Positions 11,779-18,428 of a stretch of DNA of 52,951 nt are shown here, in pieces. The notes below the pieces were generated by a model. That model made no database searches. It worked only from the letters and a program-made list of their open reading frames with translations, and was not told the DNA's origin. The stretch covers positions 1 to 52,951 of the forward strand of contig JAGPCO010000045.1 of the NCBI GenBank assembly GCA_018058095.1, written 5' to 3'. The DNA is from Kofleriaceae bacterium. Its GTDB lineage: Bacteria > Myxococcota_A > Polyangia > Haliangiales > Haliangiaceae. The position numbers and the translations under genes are program-made. Each line of letters starts with the position of its first letter. The stretch's first letter is position 1.

Positions 11779-11809
11779 TGCGACGGTTCTGGCCGACCGC
11801 TCGTCCGGA
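11779..11809 (+). promoter_or_regulatory. Candidate ECF-type promoter, copy A
   Basis: TGCGACG at 11779-11785, a 14-nt spacer, then CTCGTCCGGA at 11800-11809, ending 5 nt before ATG 11815. The same two boxes with exactly the same spacing stand before the lipoprotein genes at 16851 and 17673. The CGTC core in the downstream box is typical of ECF sigma -10 elements. The short distance to ATG implies a leaderless or near-leaderless transcript, and no Shine-Dalgarno is present. Confidence 0.7.
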
Positions 11810-11814
11810 CCAGC

Positions 11815-12387
11815 ATGAACACCAAGACCCTCTCCCTCCTGTCCCTGTCCCTCCTGTCCACCGTCGGCTGCGCCGCGCTGCTCAAGTCCGGCCTGGTCAA
11901 GGACGGCACCAACTACGCCGAGAACCCCATCGCCAGCGGCAAGCCGCTCGAGCTGCGGCAGAAGGGCGACACCGGGATCGTGGCCGAGCCCGACTGCGAG
12001 ACCTGGCCGTTCGAGGACGTGGTCACCGTGACCGCGACCGAGGCCGAGATCTGCATCGAGTTCAACCGCCACGGCGACTTCGAGATGGGCCCGCGTGATC
12101 CGGCGGAGTCGCTGCCCATGCGCGTCGACGCCGACGGGGGCGCCGGCCCGACCCAGCTCGAGGCGACCAAGGTGCGCCACGCCAAGATCAGCCAGTGCTT
12201 CAACAAGGGCTACGGCAAGAGCGTCAACATCTGGAACACCACCTACCGCGGCTGTACCGCCAACGCCGGTCACCTCACCGCCAGCGCGACCTACCTCACC
12301 ATCGGCGACCACCGCTGGAGCTTCCAGAACAAGGACGCCGCCGCGCCCGCTGGCGCGACCACCGCCTCGGCCAGCCCGACCCCGTAG
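11815..12387 (+). CDS. Small secreted lipoprotein, putative target of the adjacent sigma factor
   Basis: 190 aa. The signal peptide (MNTKTLSLLSLSLLSTVGC) ends in a lipobox at Cys19. The mature part of about 170 aa has four cysteines (CETWPF, EICIEF, QCFNKG, GCTANAG) and a Thr/Ala/Ser/Pro tail; no known domain recognised. There is no Shine-Dalgarno. Instead the promoter-like motif ends 5 nt before ATG, the same arrangement as the two lipoproteins at 16851 and 17673, although the protein is not an obvious paralogue of them. It lies one intergenic space (289 nt, no other gene seen) upstream of the sigma factor gene. Confidence 0.85.
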   Translation: MNTKTLSLLSLSLLSTVGCAALLKSGLVKDGTNYAENPIASGKPLELRQKGDTGIVAEPDCETWPFEDVVTVTATEAEICIEFNRHGDFEMGPRDPAESLPMRVDADGGAGPTQLEATKVRHAKISQCFNKGYGKSVNIWNTTYRGCTANAGHLTASATYLTIGDHRWSFQNKDAAAPAGATTASASPTP

Positions 12388-12676
12388 CGAGGGGTCGCGG
12401 CGGTGCTGTCGCAGCGCCTCGGCGCCCGGCACCGCCGCGATCCCGACGCCTTGTGCAGCCGTAGCGCCCCTGGTGCCCTGCACAACCGCAGCGTCCCTCC
12501 CTCGAGCTCCCGCCCGCCCGATGCCCATCCTCCCGCCAACGCAAGGCCACGGCCGCGCCGCCACCCCGCTCGCCCGGTCGTGGGCGCGGGGCCTCGCGCT
12601 GTCGGCACGCGGCGGCGCCGCGCCGGGTGGTCGACTTCACCCGTCGAGCGGCCCGCCCGCGTGGCATGCTCGCGCC

Positions 12677-13633
12677 GTGGCCACGCCCGCCTTCGCCGAG
12701 GACGTCCTCGCCCGCATGGCGATCCACGGCGCCGGCGTCGCGCTCGACGACGAGCTGGCGCGGGCGCTGACCAACGCCCTCGATGCCGGCTGGTGCGCCA
12801 CCGTGGCCCGGTTCCCCGACGCCGCGGCCACCGTCGCCGCCGGCGCCGGCGCCGAGCGGCTCGGCTTCGTCGATCACACCGCCGCCGTCCTGGCCGGCGC
12901 GGCCGACCTCGGGCGCCGCCTCGGCCAGCTCCGCGTCGATGATCTGTACCTGGCCTGGTGGGCCGGCCAGGGTGGCGCCGCCGGCATCGCCGCCTTCGAG
13001 CGCACCTTCGCGCCCGACCTCGACCGCCTCTTGGCGCGGTTTCATCGCCTGCCGTCGGACGACCTGCGCCAGCAGCTGCGGGTGCGCCTGTTCGTTGGCA
13101 CGGCGACCACGCCGCCGCGGGTCCTGGCCTACGCCGGCCTCGGCCACCTGCAGAACTGGCTGCGGGTGACCGCGTCGCGCCTGTTCGTCGACACCGCCCG
13201 CGCCAGCCGGGGCAAGGACCGTGAGGTCGACGACGAGCCGCTGCTGATGGCGCTGCCGGCGGCCGACGACCCCGAGCTGGGCCAGCTGCGCGCGCAGCTG
13301 CACGAGGCCATCAAGCCGGCGCTGGCGGCGGCGGCGGCGGCGCTCGCTCCGCGCGCGCGCACCTTCCTGCGCCACGTCTACGTCGACGAGCTGACGCTCG
13401 ACCAGATCGCCGCGCTGCACGACGTGCATCGCGCCACCGTGGCCCGCACCCTGGCCAGCGCCCGCGCCGACCTGTGGGCGGCGACCCGGGCCGAGGTGGC
13501 CGAGCGGCTGGGCGTCGGCGCCGAGCAGCTCGCCAGCGTGGTGCGCTACCTCGGCTCGCAGTTCGACCTGTCGCTGTCGCGGGTGTTCGCCAGCGTCAGC
13601 GAGGGCGCGGCCGGCGCCGACGGGCGGCCGTGA
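12677..13633 (+). CDS. ECF-like RNA polymerase sigma factor (myxobacterial type)
   Basis: 318 aa from GTG 12677 (VATPAFAEDVLARM); ATG 12716 is an alternative. The N-terminal 110 residues are a variable helical region. Region 2 follows at about 120-185 (ERTFAPDLDRLLARF, and YAGLGHLQNWLRVTASRLFVD with a conserved Trp). Region 4 carries a helix-turn-helix at about 239-264 (LTLDQIAALHDVHRATVARTLASAR). There is no region 3, as in ECF factors. From memory it resembles the TIGR03001 sigma subfamily abundant in Myxococcus and Gemmata; this was not checked. Its stop overlaps the kinase start as GTGA, so production is coupled to a protein with an anti-sigma-like motif. No copy of the TGCGACG/CTCGTCCGGA motif lies in front of it. 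Confidence 0.88.
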   Translation: MATPAFAEDVLARMAIHGAGVALDDELARALTNALDAGWCATVARFPDAAATVAAGAGAERLGFVDHTAAVLAGAADLGRRLGQLRVDDLYLAWWAGQGGAAGIAAFERTFAPDLDRLLARFHRLPSDDLRQQLRVRLFVGTATTPPRVLAYAGLGHLQNWLRVTASRLFVDTARASRGKDREVDDEPLLMALPAADDPELGQLRAQLHEAIKPALAAAAAALAPRARTFLRHVYVDELTLDQIAALHDVHRATVARTLASARADLWAATRAEVAERLGVGAEQLASVVRYLGSQFDLSLSRVFASVSEGAAGADGRP

Positions 13634-15639
13634 ATCCGCTCGGCGGTGCGGAGCCGGCGCACGGCGACGCCGGCGCGCCGGGTCCGTGCCCGAGCGAGGA
13701 CGAGCTGGTCGCGCTGCTCGACGCCGGGCCGCTCCCCGCTGGTGAACGTCCGGCACTGGCCGCCCACCTCGACGCCTGCGCCCGCTGCCGCGAGACCGTC
13801 GCCGCGGTGGTCGCGCTCGAGCCGCACCAGGGCAACGACCAGCTGGGCCGCTATCGGCTCGAGCAGCCGCTCGGGGCCGGCGCGATGGGCCTGGTGTGGG
13901 CGGCGTGGGATCCCGAGCTCGAGCGCCGGGTCGCCATCAAGCTGCTGCGCACCGACAGCGCCGACGCCGACGCCCGCACGCGCCTGCTGCGCGAGGCGCG
14001 CGCGCTGGCCCGGCTGCAGCACCCCAACGTGCTGGCCGTGCACGACGTCGGCGAGGCGATGGGCGAGGTGTTCGTCGCCACCGAGCTGGTCGACGGCGAG
14101 CCGATCGGCGCGTGGCAGGTCGGCCGACCGTGGCGGCAGATCGTCGACGCCTACCTGCAGGCCGCGCGCGGGGTCGCCGCCGCCCACGCCGCCGGGCTCA
14201 TCCACCGCGACATCAAGCCGGCCAACATCTTCGTCGGCCGCGACGGTCGCGTCCGCGTCGGTGACTTCGGCCTCGCCGTCGGCGAGGGCGCGCCGCCACC
14301 GCCGCCGTCACCAGGCGCCACGCCGGCCCGCCCGAGCCAGCGCCTGGCGCTCGGCAGCGGCCCGGATCGGCTCGCGCTCGGCAGCGCGCCCGACGCCGGC
14401 ACCGGCGCGGACGGCCACGCCCCGCTGGTGGCGGCGGTGAGCTGCATCGCCGGCACGCCGGAGTACATGGCGCCCGAGCAGCTCGAGAGCGTGGTCATCG
14501 ACGCCCGCATCGATCAGTTCGCGCTGGCGCTGGCGCTGACCGAGGCGCTCGGCGGGGAGCGGGTCCCGGCCGGCACCAGCGCGGCCGAGGTGTCGGCGCT
14601 CGTGCCGGCCGAGGCGCCGGCCGCGCTGGCCCAGGCCCTGGCCACCGCGCTGGCGGTTCGGCCCGACGACCGCTTCGCCAGCGTCGAGGTGTTCGTCGTC
14701 GCGATCGAGCGGGCGCTGGCGCCGGCGCCGTCGGCCGCGGTCGACCCCGCCGTCGGCGTGACCCCAGGACGCCGGCGGCGGGCGTGGTGGCCGGCGCTGG
14801 CCTTGGTCGCCGTCGTCGGCGGGGTACTCGGCGCTGGCTGGTGGGCGACGCGCCCGTCCGGTGAGCGCGGCGGCCCGGCGCCCACGCAGGTCGCTGGAGG
14901 TGGGCCCGGCAGCGACGTAGGCAGCAGCGGCGATCGCGGCCTCGGCAAGGTCGGTGGCGTCGGCGTCGGCGTCGGCAGCGGCAGCGGCACCGGCGCCGGT
15001 CTCGGCAGCGCCGGCAGGGGCGCGGTCAGCGCCGGCTCCGCGGCCCAGGTTCGCACCGCGACCGGCGGCAAGCGGCGGGCCGGCCCTGGCACCGTCGTCG
15101 CTGCCACCCCCGCTGCACCGATCAGCCCGACCGCGCCGCCCGACTTCAAGGCCGTGCTCGACGCCAACAGCGAGGCCAACCGGCACTTCGGCAACTTCGA
15201 CGGGGTCCGCTGCCTGCACGCGCTCGATCGTGTGCCCGAGCAGTCGGCGACCGACTCGCTCCGCTCCATGTGCGAGATGCTGGCCGGCCGCTGCGACGAT
15301 GGCATCACCCGCCTGCGCAAGTACGGCGCCACCGCCGAGCAGGCCGGCCTCGTCGCCGAGGCCTGGTGCCCGGTCGACCAGGGGCCGACCGCGACCCGGG
15401 TCGCGCGGATGGTCGCGCAGCAGCCCCACATCCCGCGCGCCTGCGCCCGCTACGACCGGCTGCTGCGTGGCCTGGCCAGCCGGTCCGACCTGTCCGACCC
15501 CGACCGCCAGGCCCTGGCCAAACCCGCCACCGCCGTGGCCACCTGCCTCGGCAAGCGCGACTGCGTCGCCGCGCGCGACCTCGCCACCGCCCTGGCTGGC
15601 GACGGCATCACCGCCACGCTGCCGGTCGACTGCGAGTAG
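13630..15639 (+). CDS. Ser/Thr kinase with N-terminal anti-sigma-like zinc motif
   Basis: 669 aa from GTG 13630, overlapping the sigma factor stop by 4 nt (GTGA). Residues 1-65 contain H46-x3-C50-x2-C53 (HLDACARC), the signature of ZAS/zf-HC2 anti-sigma domains. The kinase domain runs from about 77 to 360: GAGAMG at 82, VAIK, HRDIKPAN with H192, DFG at 212-214, and TPEYMAPEQ. A transmembrane helix lies at about 386-407. A Gly/Val/Ser/Thr-rich low-complexity linker follows, then an extracytoplasmic C-terminal domain of about 170 aa with eight or so cysteines. This suggests a sensor kinase that holds or releases the sigma factor. That role is inferred from the overlap, the zinc motif and known ECF-kinase pairs. 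Confidence 0.9.
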   Translation: MNPLGGAEPAHGDAGAPGPCPSEDELVALLDAGPLPAGERPALAAHLDACARCRETVAAVVALEPHQGNDQLGRYRLEQPLGAGAMGLVWAAWDPELERRVAIKLLRTDSADADARTRLLREARALARLQHPNVLAVHDVGEAMGEVFVATELVDGEPIGAWQVGRPWRQIVDAYLQAARGVAAAHAAGLIHRDIKPANIFVGRDGRVRVGDFGLAVGEGAPPPPPSPGATPARPSQRLALGSGPDRLALGSAPDAGTGADGHAPLVAAVSCIAGTPEYMAPEQLESVVIDARIDQFALALALTEALGGERVPAGTSAAEVSALVPAEAPAALAQALATALAVRPDDRFASVEVFVVAIERALAPAPSAAVDPAVGVTPGRRRRAWWPALALVAVVGGVLGAGWWATRPSGERGGPAPTQVAGGGPGSDVGSSGDRGLGKVGGVGVGVGSGSGTGAGLGSAGRGAVSAGSAAQVRTATGGKRRAGPGTVVAATPAAPISPTAPPDFKAVLDANSEANRHFGNFDGVRCLHALDRVPEQSATDSLRSMCEMLAGRCDDGITRLRKYGATAEQAGLVAEAWCPVDQGPTATRVARMVAQQPHIPRACARYDRLLRGLASRSDLSDPDRQALAKPATAVATCLGKRDCVAARDLATALAGDGITATLPVDCE

Positions 15640-15736
15640 CCCGGGGGGCCGAGGCGCGTGGTCTGACCAACTGCCGCGTCGGGCACGGCGGATTTCGGTG
15701 ATCACTTCTCGGCGACCCACGACTCCTGGGGTGCCG

Positions 15737-16804
15737 ATGTCGTGTTGCCCTGACGAGGACCAGCTGGTCGACCTGCTCGACCTCGAGCGCGCCGCGCCGC
15801 GGACCACCCTCGCCGGCCACCTCGATCGCTGCGCGCGCTGCCGCGAGACCGTCGCCGCCGTGGTCGCGCTCGAGCCACACCAGGGCCACGACCCGCTCGG
15901 GCGCTACCAGCTCGAGCGCCCACTCGGGGCCGGCGCGATGGGCCTGGTGTGGGCGGCGTGGGACCCCGAGCTCGAGCGGCGGGTCGCCATCAAGCTGGTG
16001 CGGGCCGAGCGGGATGACGCGACCGCGCGCGCCTGGCTGCTGCGCGAGGCGCGCGCGCTGGCCCGGCTCCAGCACCCGAACGTGCTGGCGGTGTATGACC
16101 TCGGCCGCGCCGGCGGCGAGCTGTTCATCGTCACCGAGCTGGTCGACGGCGACACCATCGGCGCCTGGCAGATCGGACGGCCCTGGCAGCAGGTGGTCGA
16201 GGCGTACCTGCAGGCGGCGCGTGGCGTGGCTGCCGCCCACGCGGCCGGGCTCATCCACCGCGACCTCAAGCCCGATAACATCCTGGTCGGCCGCGACGGC
16301 CGCGTCCGCGTCGGCGACTTCGGCCTGGCCATCGGCACCGCCACCGACGAAGGCGCCACCACCGTCGAACGCCCGCGGCTGCCCTTGGACCGGCCACGGC
16401 GCGCCGCGCGTGGGACCGAGCCCGGTACGGTCGTCGCCGCGGCCAGCCGCATCGCCGGGACTCCGGCGTACATGGCGCCGGAGCAGCACACCAGCACGGT
16501 CATCGACGCACGCGCCGACCAGTACGGCCTCGCCCTGGCCCTGACCGAGGCCTTGCTCGGTCGGCGGGTCCCGGCCGGGGTCAGCGCGGGGGCGATCAGC
16601 GCGGGTTCGACCGAGTGGATTCCGCGCCCGCTCGCCGTCGCCCTCGCCCGCGCGCTGGAGACCGAGCCGGAGGCGCGCTTCGCCAGCGTCGACGCCTTCA
16701 TCACCGCGGTCGAAGCCAGCCTGGCCGCGGCCCCGGCGCGCCCGAGCCTCCTCGCTGGAGTCGTGTCGACACCCCTGCGGCCGCCGGCCGCGCTCGCCTG
16801 CTGA
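15737..16804 (+). CDS. Soluble Ser/Thr kinase paralogue with anti-sigma-like zinc motif
   Basis: 355 aa from ATG 15737 (a GTG two codons earlier is possible). It is closely similar to the preceding kinase over the zinc motif (H28-x3-C32-x2-C35, HLDRCARC) and the kinase domain (GAGAMG, VAIKLV, HRDLKPDN, DFGLAI, APEQ), including long identical stretches. Unlike its neighbour it ends soon after the kinase C-lobe, with no transmembrane helix and no extracytoplasmic domain, so it should be cytosolic. It probably arose by tandem duplication. All catalytic residues are kept. It lies 97 nt after the first kinase gene and just before the two lipoproteins. Confidence 0.9.
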   Translation: MSCCPDEDQLVDLLDLERAAPRTTLAGHLDRCARCRETVAAVVALEPHQGHDPLGRYQLERPLGAGAMGLVWAAWDPELERRVAIKLVRAERDDATARAWLLREARALARLQHPNVLAVYDLGRAGGELFIVTELVDGDTIGAWQIGRPWQQVVEAYLQAARGVAAAHAAGLIHRDLKPDNILVGRDGRVRVGDFGLAIGTATDEGATTVERPRLPLDRPRRAARGTEPGTVVAAASRIAGTPAYMAPEQHTSTVIDARADQYGLALALTEALLGRRVPAGVSAGAISAGSTEWIPRPLAVALARALETEPEARFASVDAFITAVEASLAAAPARPSLLAGVVSTPLRPPAALAC

Positions 16805-16812
16805 CCCATCGA

Positions 16813-16843
16813 TGCGACGCCCACGGCCGGCCTCTCGTCCGGA
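16813..16843 (+). promoter_or_regulatory. Candidate ECF-type promoter, copy B
   Basis: TGCGACG at 16813-16819, a 14-nt spacer, CTCGTCCGGA at 16834-16843, then 7 nt to ATG 16851. Boxes and spacing are identical to copies A (11779) and C (17637), while the spacer sequence differs. That is what selection on two contact boxes would produce. Confidence 0.72.
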
Positions 16844-16850
16844 TCCGCAT

Positions 16851-17600
16851 ATGCAGTCGCACCCCGTCGCCTCGACCATCTGTCCCCGTTCGCGCGCCCT
16901 CCTCACCGTCACGATGGGATGGGCCCTCGCCGTCGCCGGGTGCGGCGGCCCCGACGACACGGGTGGCCCCGGCGGCCCCGCCAGCCCCGACGCTGGCCCG
17001 GTTGCCAGCGATCCGGCCGCGCCGCGGTTCCTCTCCTTCGGCACCAACGTCACCTCGCTGACCGAGGACGAGTCGGTCATCTTCACCGCGGTGCTGACCG
17101 ACCCCGACGGCATCGACGACCTCATCGGCGGCTCGCTGACCAGCCCCGATGGCCAGGTCCAGTACGGCGCCTTCGCCACCTCCGGCCAGGAGGGCTCGTA
17201 CACCATCACCCTGAGCTGGGAGGCCATGCACCAGGCCCAGGACATCACCTTCGCCACCGGCGAGCCGCGCCAGTTCCGCGCCGAGTTCTTCGACGTCGCC
17301 GGCCACGCCGTCACGCGGATGGTGACGATCGGCCTGACCTGCGACGGCCAGTACGCGTGCGGCGGCGCGTGCCGCGACATGTGTTACGTCAGCGTCGAGC
17401 AGCGGGCGACGTGCGCCGCCGCCTGCGAGGAGGCCGGCATGACCTGCTACCTCGAGGACACCGATCGCCTCGCTGGCTACCGCTACAACAGCACGACCGT
17501 GAACTACCGCAGCCTGGCCACCTGCGCGACCGTGCCCGCCGCGACCTACAACGGCGACCCCTTCGCGTTCGTGTCATGCCACTGCCACGCCCTCGACTGA
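16851..17600 (+). CDS. Lipoprotein paralogue 1, putative sigma-factor target
   Basis: 249 aa. ATG 16851 was chosen because the promoter motif ends 7 nt before it; the signal peptide then has an extended n-region and ends LAVAGC. After an Asp/Gly/Pro linker comes a beta-sandwich-like domain (FGTNVTSLTEDESVIFTAVL, DPDGIDDLIGGSLTSPDG, YGAFATSGQEGSYT) and a C-terminal cysteine-rich module beginning CDGQYACGGACRDMC. The first domain is nearly identical to that of the next gene, whereas the cysteine module has diverged. Function unknown; it is surface-exposed by prediction. Located directly after the second anti-sigma-like kinase. Confidence 0.88.
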   Translation: MQSHPVASTICPRSRALLTVTMGWALAVAGCGGPDDTGGPGGPASPDAGPVASDPAAPRFLSFGTNVTSLTEDESVIFTAVLTDPDGIDDLIGGSLTSPDGQVQYGAFATSGQEGSYTITLSWEAMHQAQDITFATGEPRQFRAEFFDVAGHAVTRMVTIGLTCDGQYACGGACRDMCYVSVEQRATCAAACEEAGMTCYLEDTDRLAGYRYNSTTVNYRSLATCATVPAATYNGDPFAFVSCHCHALD

Positions 17601-17636
17601 GGGCATGAGGCGCCGTCACCCGGCGAAGCACGCCGG

Positions 17637-17667
17637 TGCGACGGTCTCGCCGCCCCGCTCGTCCGGA
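17637..17667 (+). promoter_or_regulatory. Candidate ECF-type promoter, copy C
   Basis: TGCGACG at 17637-17643, a 14-nt spacer, CTCGTCCGGA at 17658-17667, then 5 nt to ATG 17673. The preceding lipoprotein gene ends at 17600, so the second paralogue has its own promoter rather than depending on read-through. Confidence 0.72.
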
Positions 17668-17672
17668 CCGGC

Positions 17673-18428
17673 ATGCGCTCATGCACCCGTCACCTCGCCT
17701 ACCTTGCCTCGCTCTTCCTTCTCGCCGCCTGTGGCGAGCCGTCCGACCCGGGCCCGGCCAGCCCCGACGCCAGCCCGGCCAGCCTCGACGCCGGCGTGGG
17801 CGGCCCCGACGCCACCACCAACCCGCCCGATCCGTCGGCGCCGCGGTTCCTCACCTTCGGCACCAACGTCACCTCCATCGGCTGGGGAGGCGCGGTCACC
17901 TTCACCGCCGTCTTGACCGACCCCGACGGCATCGATGACCTCATCGGCGGCTCGCTCACCAGCCCCGACGGCGCCATCCAGTACGGCGCCTTCGCCACCT
18001 CGGGCCAGGAGGGCTCCTACACCCTGACCCTGGACTGGAACTCCATGAACCGGTCCGAGCCCATCACCTTCGCCACCCACGAAGATCGCCAGTTCCGCGC
18101 CGCCTTCTTCGACGTCGCCGGCCACCTGGCCGAGCGCCTCATCGCCATCGAGCTCACCTGCGGCGGCCGCTACGCCTGTGGTGGAACCTGCCTCGACATG
18201 TGCGGCGCCACCTCGCAGCAGCGCCAGTCGTGTGACCAGGTCTGCACCGCGCAAGGCATGGTGTGCGCCGGCGGCACGTTCGGCCGCGAGGCTAACTACT
18301 CGGCAGGCGGTCTCGACGGCCGCCGCCTCGACCTCGAGACCTGCGCCACCATCCCGCCGCCCACGTACCCGGGCCTGGACCGCGACTTCGACTACGTCGA
18401 GTGCGACTGCATCCCGCTCGACCCATGA
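17673..18428 (+). CDS. Lipoprotein paralogue 2, putative sigma-factor target
   Basis: 251 aa, with a clean lipoprotein signal (HLAYLASLFLLAAC). The body repeats that of the preceding gene: Asp/Ala/Pro linker, FGTNVTSIGWGGAVTFTAVL, DPDGIDDLIGGSLTSPDG, YGAFATSGQEGSYT, and a cysteine module (CGGRYACGGTCLDMCG...). The beta domain is highly conserved, while the linker and C-terminal cysteine part vary, as expected for a duplicated surface or ligand-binding protein. It has its own copy of the two-box promoter. Function unknown. Confidence 0.88.
   Translation: MRSCTRHLAYLASLFLLAACGEPSDPGPASPDASPASLDAGVGGPDATTNPPDPSAPRFLTFGTNVTSIGWGGAVTFTAVLTDPDGIDDLIGGSLTSPDGAIQYGAFATSGQEGSYTLTLDWNSMNRSEPITFATHEDRQFRAAFFDVAGHLAERLIAIELTCGGRYACGGTCLDMCGATSQQRQSCDQVCTAQGMVCAGGTFGREANYSAGGLDGRRLDLETCATIPPPTYPGLDRDFDYVECDCIPLDP

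Follow-up and report, generated by a model that had tools for sequence, protein, structure and literature searches.

What reads the repeated two-box element that precedes three lipoprotein genes around a sigma factor gene of a Kofleriaceae bacterium, and how many other genes stand behind the same signal? Within the window, by which we mean the whole stretch of 52,951 nucleotides that was analysed, the pattern TGCGACG-N14-CTCGTCCGGA occurs in three copies, all on the plus strand and with the 7-mer and the 10-mer separated by exactly 14 nt, against an expectation of 0 (0 in 100 dinucleotide shuffles). The final CGGA of the copies is followed after 5, 7 and 5 nt by the ATG codons at 11815, 16851 and 17673, without a Shine-Dalgarno sequence, and all three reading frames are lipoprotein-like. 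Between the first and the second site lie the sigma gene and two Ser/Thr kinase genes whose N-termini carry an anti-sigma-like HxxxCxxC motif (Table 1). These were the core observations of an earlier note on this DNA, and the exact spacing, the short distance to lipoprotein starts and the flanking of sigma and kinase genes were all reproduced.

Table 1. Candidate promoters and genes of the locus, in window coordinates.
Feature	Position	Strand	Remarks
Candidate promoter P1, before lipoprotein 1	11779..11809	+	exact match; -35-like TGCGACG, -10-like CGTCCGGA; ATG 5 nt downstream
Lipoprotein 1, 190 aa	11815..12387	+	signal peptide and lipobox-like cysteine
Sigma factor, TIGR03001 Sig-70_gmx1, 318 aa, proposed reader of the sites	12677..13633	+	185.6 bits (cutoff 154.6), residues 64-304
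Ser/Thr kinase 1	13630..15639	+	N-terminal HxxxCxxC (anti-sigma-like), kinase domain, one predicted membrane segment
Ser/Thr kinase 2	15737..16804	+	N-terminal HxxxCxxC and kinase domain
Candidate promoter P2, before lipoprotein 2	16813..16843	+	exact match; ATG 7 nt downstream
Lipoprotein 2, 249 aa, paralogue of lipoprotein 3	16851..17600	+	signal peptide and lipobox-like cysteine
Candidate promoter P3, before lipoprotein 3	17637..17667	+	exact match; ATG 5 nt downstream
Lipoprotein 3, 251 aa	17673..18428	+	signal peptide and lipobox-like cysteine

We searched for the element in the rest of the source genome (G000), a draft of 7.57 Mb in 227 contigs. One extra exact copy of TGCGACG-N14-CTCGTCCGGA was found (C133:1520), together with a one-mismatch site carrying TGCGACT (C145:9303), and the wider T/G form adds C34:7778, bringing the source genome to six sites. 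At all six, an ATG or GTG lies 5-7 nt downstream, although the true start at the C133 site is possibly an ATG 34 codons further on. With 3 mismatches allowed, the pattern was no commoner in the source genome than its reversed control, so only near-perfect sites represent signal. The earlier note had described a local regulon; three sites do lie by the sigma gene, but the other three of the six lie elsewhere in the source genome, and relatives carry up to about 15-19 exact sites.

A one-mismatch search of these relatives revealed a recurrent TGCGACT-...-CGTCCGGA form within the same genus, and the general form in congeneric Kofleriaceae is TGCGAC[T/G]-N16 (or N15)-CGTCCGGA. Exact TGCGACK-N16-CGTCCGRA sites number 15 in G003, 13 in G013, 12 in G008, 8 in G005 and 5 in G010, with none in the reversed control of these genomes, and the counts are lower bounds because the drafts are 59-97% complete. 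When spacers of 10-23 nt were scanned, the sigma-bearing genomes gave 56 sites with N16, 15 with N15 and 0-4 at every other length, and the other congeners among the 16 genomes gave one with N16 and four with N15. In a logo of 61 N16 sites the seventh base is T in 51 and G in 10, T is preferred two bases ahead of CGTC, and C or T follows CGGA, while the bases fixed by the search pattern are conserved of necessity. The CGTC-CGGA block is itself part of that pattern, but it was noticed first in the three window sites, and the bases flanking it vary where it recurs. Spacers and flanks are unconserved, and the 80 nt upstream show only a weak purine preference at -1. The 7-mer and 10-mer first described are thus exact in the window, but what is conserved is TGCGAC[T/G] and, after a gap of 16 nt, CGTCCGGA; the CT that opens the 10-mer is a mere preference.

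The geometry of these sites is that of promoters for extracytoplasmic function (ECF) sigma factors. Promoters of Bacillus subtilis sigma-M and sigma-W read TGAAAC-N16-CGTC/A, and the transcription start of an ECF-type promoter lies some 8-9 nt beyond the -10 core. Our sites share with the ECF (group 4) class the two boxes, a GNNAC-type -35, a CGTC -10, a 17 bp spacer with 16 tolerated and a position just upstream of genes, which bears out the earlier reading of the CGTC core as an ECF -10 element. For Mycobacterium tuberculosis sigma-H, the -35 GGAACA lies at -34 to -29 and the -10 GTT at -11 to -9 with an optimum of 17 bp between them, and ECF sigma factors require such a rigid spacer (PMC6411747). 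In sigma-H numbering our site becomes GCGAC[T/G]-N17-GTC, so that the N16 and N15 spacers correspond to 17 and 16 bp. Two features differ from the known class, namely a -10 block, CGTCCGGA, that is invariant over a greater length, and start codons nearly fixed at 5-8 nt across the regulon, and this combination is unusual.

The sigma factor scores above the cutoff of TIGR03001 Sig-70_gmx1 (Myxococcales family 1), but its subclade is restricted to the genus and has a recognition helix of its own. A protein search found close homologues (>190 bits; 48-61% identical) in only 9 of the 318 genomes of the class, all of them in its own genus, with the next best at 175 bits. Members of the clade share a nearly invariant predicted -35 recognition helix (HRATVART, with HRATVARI in G010), from which other gmx1 paralogues differ. 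The exact TGCGACT-N16-CGTCCGGA form is concentrated in the same genomes, with 47 sites in seven of the nine close-sigma genomes versus 2 sites in the other 309 (Fisher p 2e-11, genomes treated as independent). The earlier note had proposed looking for just such co-occurrence with the sigma subfamily, and 47 of the 49 exact T-form sites among the 318 genomes compared fall in close-sigma genomes. Shared ancestry may contribute: the nine sigma-bearing genomes did not form one clade in two weakly resolved marker trees (aspS and a paralogue; rpoB was matched in only 7 of the 16 draft genomes), but the motif-rich genomes look closely related. Two genomes, G001 and G009, have the sigma gene and few sites. 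One site occurs without a close sigma gene, a TGCGACG-N15-CGTCCGGA located 5 nt before a homologue of the C145 lipoprotein (L208, G002:C397); it is possibly a relic, or the sigma gene is missing from this 73% complete genome.

We conclude that RNA polymerase bound to the product of the gene at 12677-13633, a gmx1-type sigma factor, very probably uses the two boxes as the -35 and -10 elements of its promoters, a recognition deduced from sequence comparison. In related bacteria the same signals precede dozens of genes that are unrelated to one another and mostly encode surface lipoproteins. The placement of near-perfect sites is not random, as the earlier note had anticipated, and most lie 5-8 nt before start codons. 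A start codon opening a frame of at least 60 aa occurs 3-12 nt downstream of 56 of the 76 fetched sites (74%), compared with 16% at random positions in the same loci, and ATG serves as the start in 64% versus 5%. Distances at these near sites are 5 nt (n=21), 6 nt (n=6), 7 nt (n=12) and 8 nt (n=10), with a mode of 5. Measured with the sigma-H ruler, they give computed leaders of 1, 2, 3 and 4 nt at 21, 6, 12 and 10 sites, that is, 49 of the 56 near sites, subject to normal start-site wobble. The +1 would lie about 5 nt past CGTCCGGA, which would place most targets' start codons at about +2 to +5. From this geometry the mRNAs are predicted to be leaderless or nearly so, with leaders of about 0-4 nt, which fits the absence of a Shine-Dalgarno sequence. 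Such a sequence seems commoner where the start is more distant (9 of 17 starts at 13-58 nt versus 6 of 56 near sites), a suggestive difference only, as several candidate starts were allowed in the far class. Tentatively, the entire sigma regulon might be designed around leaderless or near-leaderless mRNAs, in which case selecting a sigma factor would also determine how ribosomes enter. If this were true, one switch would alter both transcription and translation mode for dozens of envelope lipoproteins, and the nearly fixed distance between promoter and start makes regulon-wide leaderless translation directly testable.

The genes behind the sites are enriched for lipoproteins, as the earlier note had expected. 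A lipobox protein is opened at 33 of the 56 near sites (59%), versus 3% at random starts and 14% among long ORFs with a permissive choice of start, with lipobox calls made by regular expression. Orthologues across genomes retain the promoter while the spacer or the start distance changes (L133/L199; L144/L149/L176/L189). Homologues of lipoprotein 1 are neighbours of the sigma gene in G010 and G011 and occur also in G013, each with a site upstream, and homologues of lipoprotein 3 in G010 (L178, L179) have the site too. The proteins downstream, 72 in all, group into 48 families (BLAST E 1e-6), and most promoters were therefore not copied along with one gene. The idea that the promoters serve surface lipoproteins holds as a tendency but not as a rule, since the targets also include 63-67 aa proteins, an Hsp70-like protein and membrane proteins. 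The small proteins form a conserved family without a lipobox, 7-8 nt after the site, with one member each in G005, G008, G003 and G013 (L134, L138, L161, L169). At L143 (G008:C413:12997), an Hsp70/DnaK-like ORF with a GGAG Shine-Dalgarno sequence begins about 50 nt beyond an exact site, which suggests a cytoplasmic member of the regulon.

Several other readings of the sites were weighed. It is unlikely that these are ECF promoters read by a different sigma factor of the lineage, with the window's sigma linked to them only by ancestry. The source genome does encode a second close paralogue at C218:91151 (48% identity), which could be that reader, and the sigma-bearing genomes are relatives of one another; however, most sigma-bearing relatives have one close homologue each, and the paralogue's neighbourhood (L182) holds no site within 3 mismatches having a nearby start codon. 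Sites lie close to a sigma gene of the window's type in G000, G009, G010, G011 and G013, and in G001 with one mismatch, and the gene order in G009 is that of the window: site, lipoprotein, sigma, kinase. In the G-form, GACG and CGTC are complementary, so a transcription factor might bind the partial inverted repeat GACG-N-CGTC over an ordinary promoter. We regard this as very improbable, because T replaces the last G at most sites and breaks the symmetry, TGC and CGGA are asymmetric, start codons lie on one side only at a nearly fixed distance, and no other promoter-like conservation is seen in the 80 nt upstream, while the downstream side leaves no room for a promoter.

Slighter still is the chance of a role in RNA, with the element serving as a short translation signal in the 5'-UTR and transcription starting upstream of it. 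A start codon at a nearly constant distance would suit such a role, and GGA could pair weakly with the anti-Shine-Dalgarno sequence, but some starts lie 13-58 nt away and more often have a proper Shine-Dalgarno sequence, spacer length and start distance vary among orthologues, and the upstream region again lacks promoter-like conservation. That the sites arose by chance, or were spread by gene duplication or as a mobile repeat, is hardly credible: lipoproteins 2 and 3 are indeed tandem paralogues, but shuffled sequence gave no match and most reversed controls none, spacers and flanks are unconserved, and the 48 unrelated downstream families contradict spread by gene duplication.

Reading by the gmx1-type sigma factor, the explanation that we prefer, proposes a promoter code, a target list and a likely reader for a sigma family already named in a database. 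In the open-access literature, which omits most subscription papers, we found no description of a gmx1-family promoter or regulon, and around other gmx1 sigma genes, most with about 1.5 kb per side, a search for CGTC-N-ATG before lipoproteins gave no comparable repeated promoter. One genome alone encodes a divergent sigma homologue, G001b, with the altered recognition helix HRVTVARG (L187, G001:C83:5000-20000). The pattern TGYTAC-N17-CGTCCGKA has exactly two sites in the 16 genomes, and both flank G001b on its contig, one without a close start codon and the other 5 nt before a lipoprotein ATG. The case points to a sigma helix and a -35 box that changed together; two sites are few, which makes the match a lead, and such covariation would help decode ECF specificity.

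How the sigma factor is controlled may be read from its neighbours. The start of kinase 1 overlaps the sigma stop codon (GTGA), and each close sigma gene is followed by a related kinase gene on the same strand, or has one nearby. The HxxxCxxC motif occurs in both window kinases and at four related loci, that is, in only some of the clade's kinases; against zf-HC2, the profile of the zinc anti-sigma (ZAS) domain, kinase 1 scores below the cutoff (18.0 vs 22.2) and kinase 2 gives no match. The co-encoded kinases presumably hold the sigma factor through this anti-sigma-like N-terminal domain, the kinase acting as sensor or modulator. An envelope signal would then free the sigma factor and switch on dispersed genes, mostly for outer-envelope lipoproteins, and read-through from P1 could feed back positively on sigma. 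The arrangement recalls the ECF43 pairs EcfP-PknT and EcfK-PknS, in which the sigma gene likewise adjoins a Ser/Thr kinase gene and region 2.2 is without the acidic DAED motif (PMC8999054). In contrast, the clade of the window's sigma has an acidic DD or DE in the DELRQ segment of region 2.2, and the window kinases bear the HxxxCxxC domain. Phospho-activation of the ECF43 type is less likely, the acidic residues arguing against its strict form, and the HxxxCxxC domain makes release from sequestration the likelier route. The second close sigma homologue of the source genome (L182, G000:C218:84000-100000) is accompanied by an HxxxCxxC kinase that is separately placed. Beside the window's sigma gene, tandem duplication is seen for both the kinase (13630-16804) and the target lipoprotein (16851-18428).
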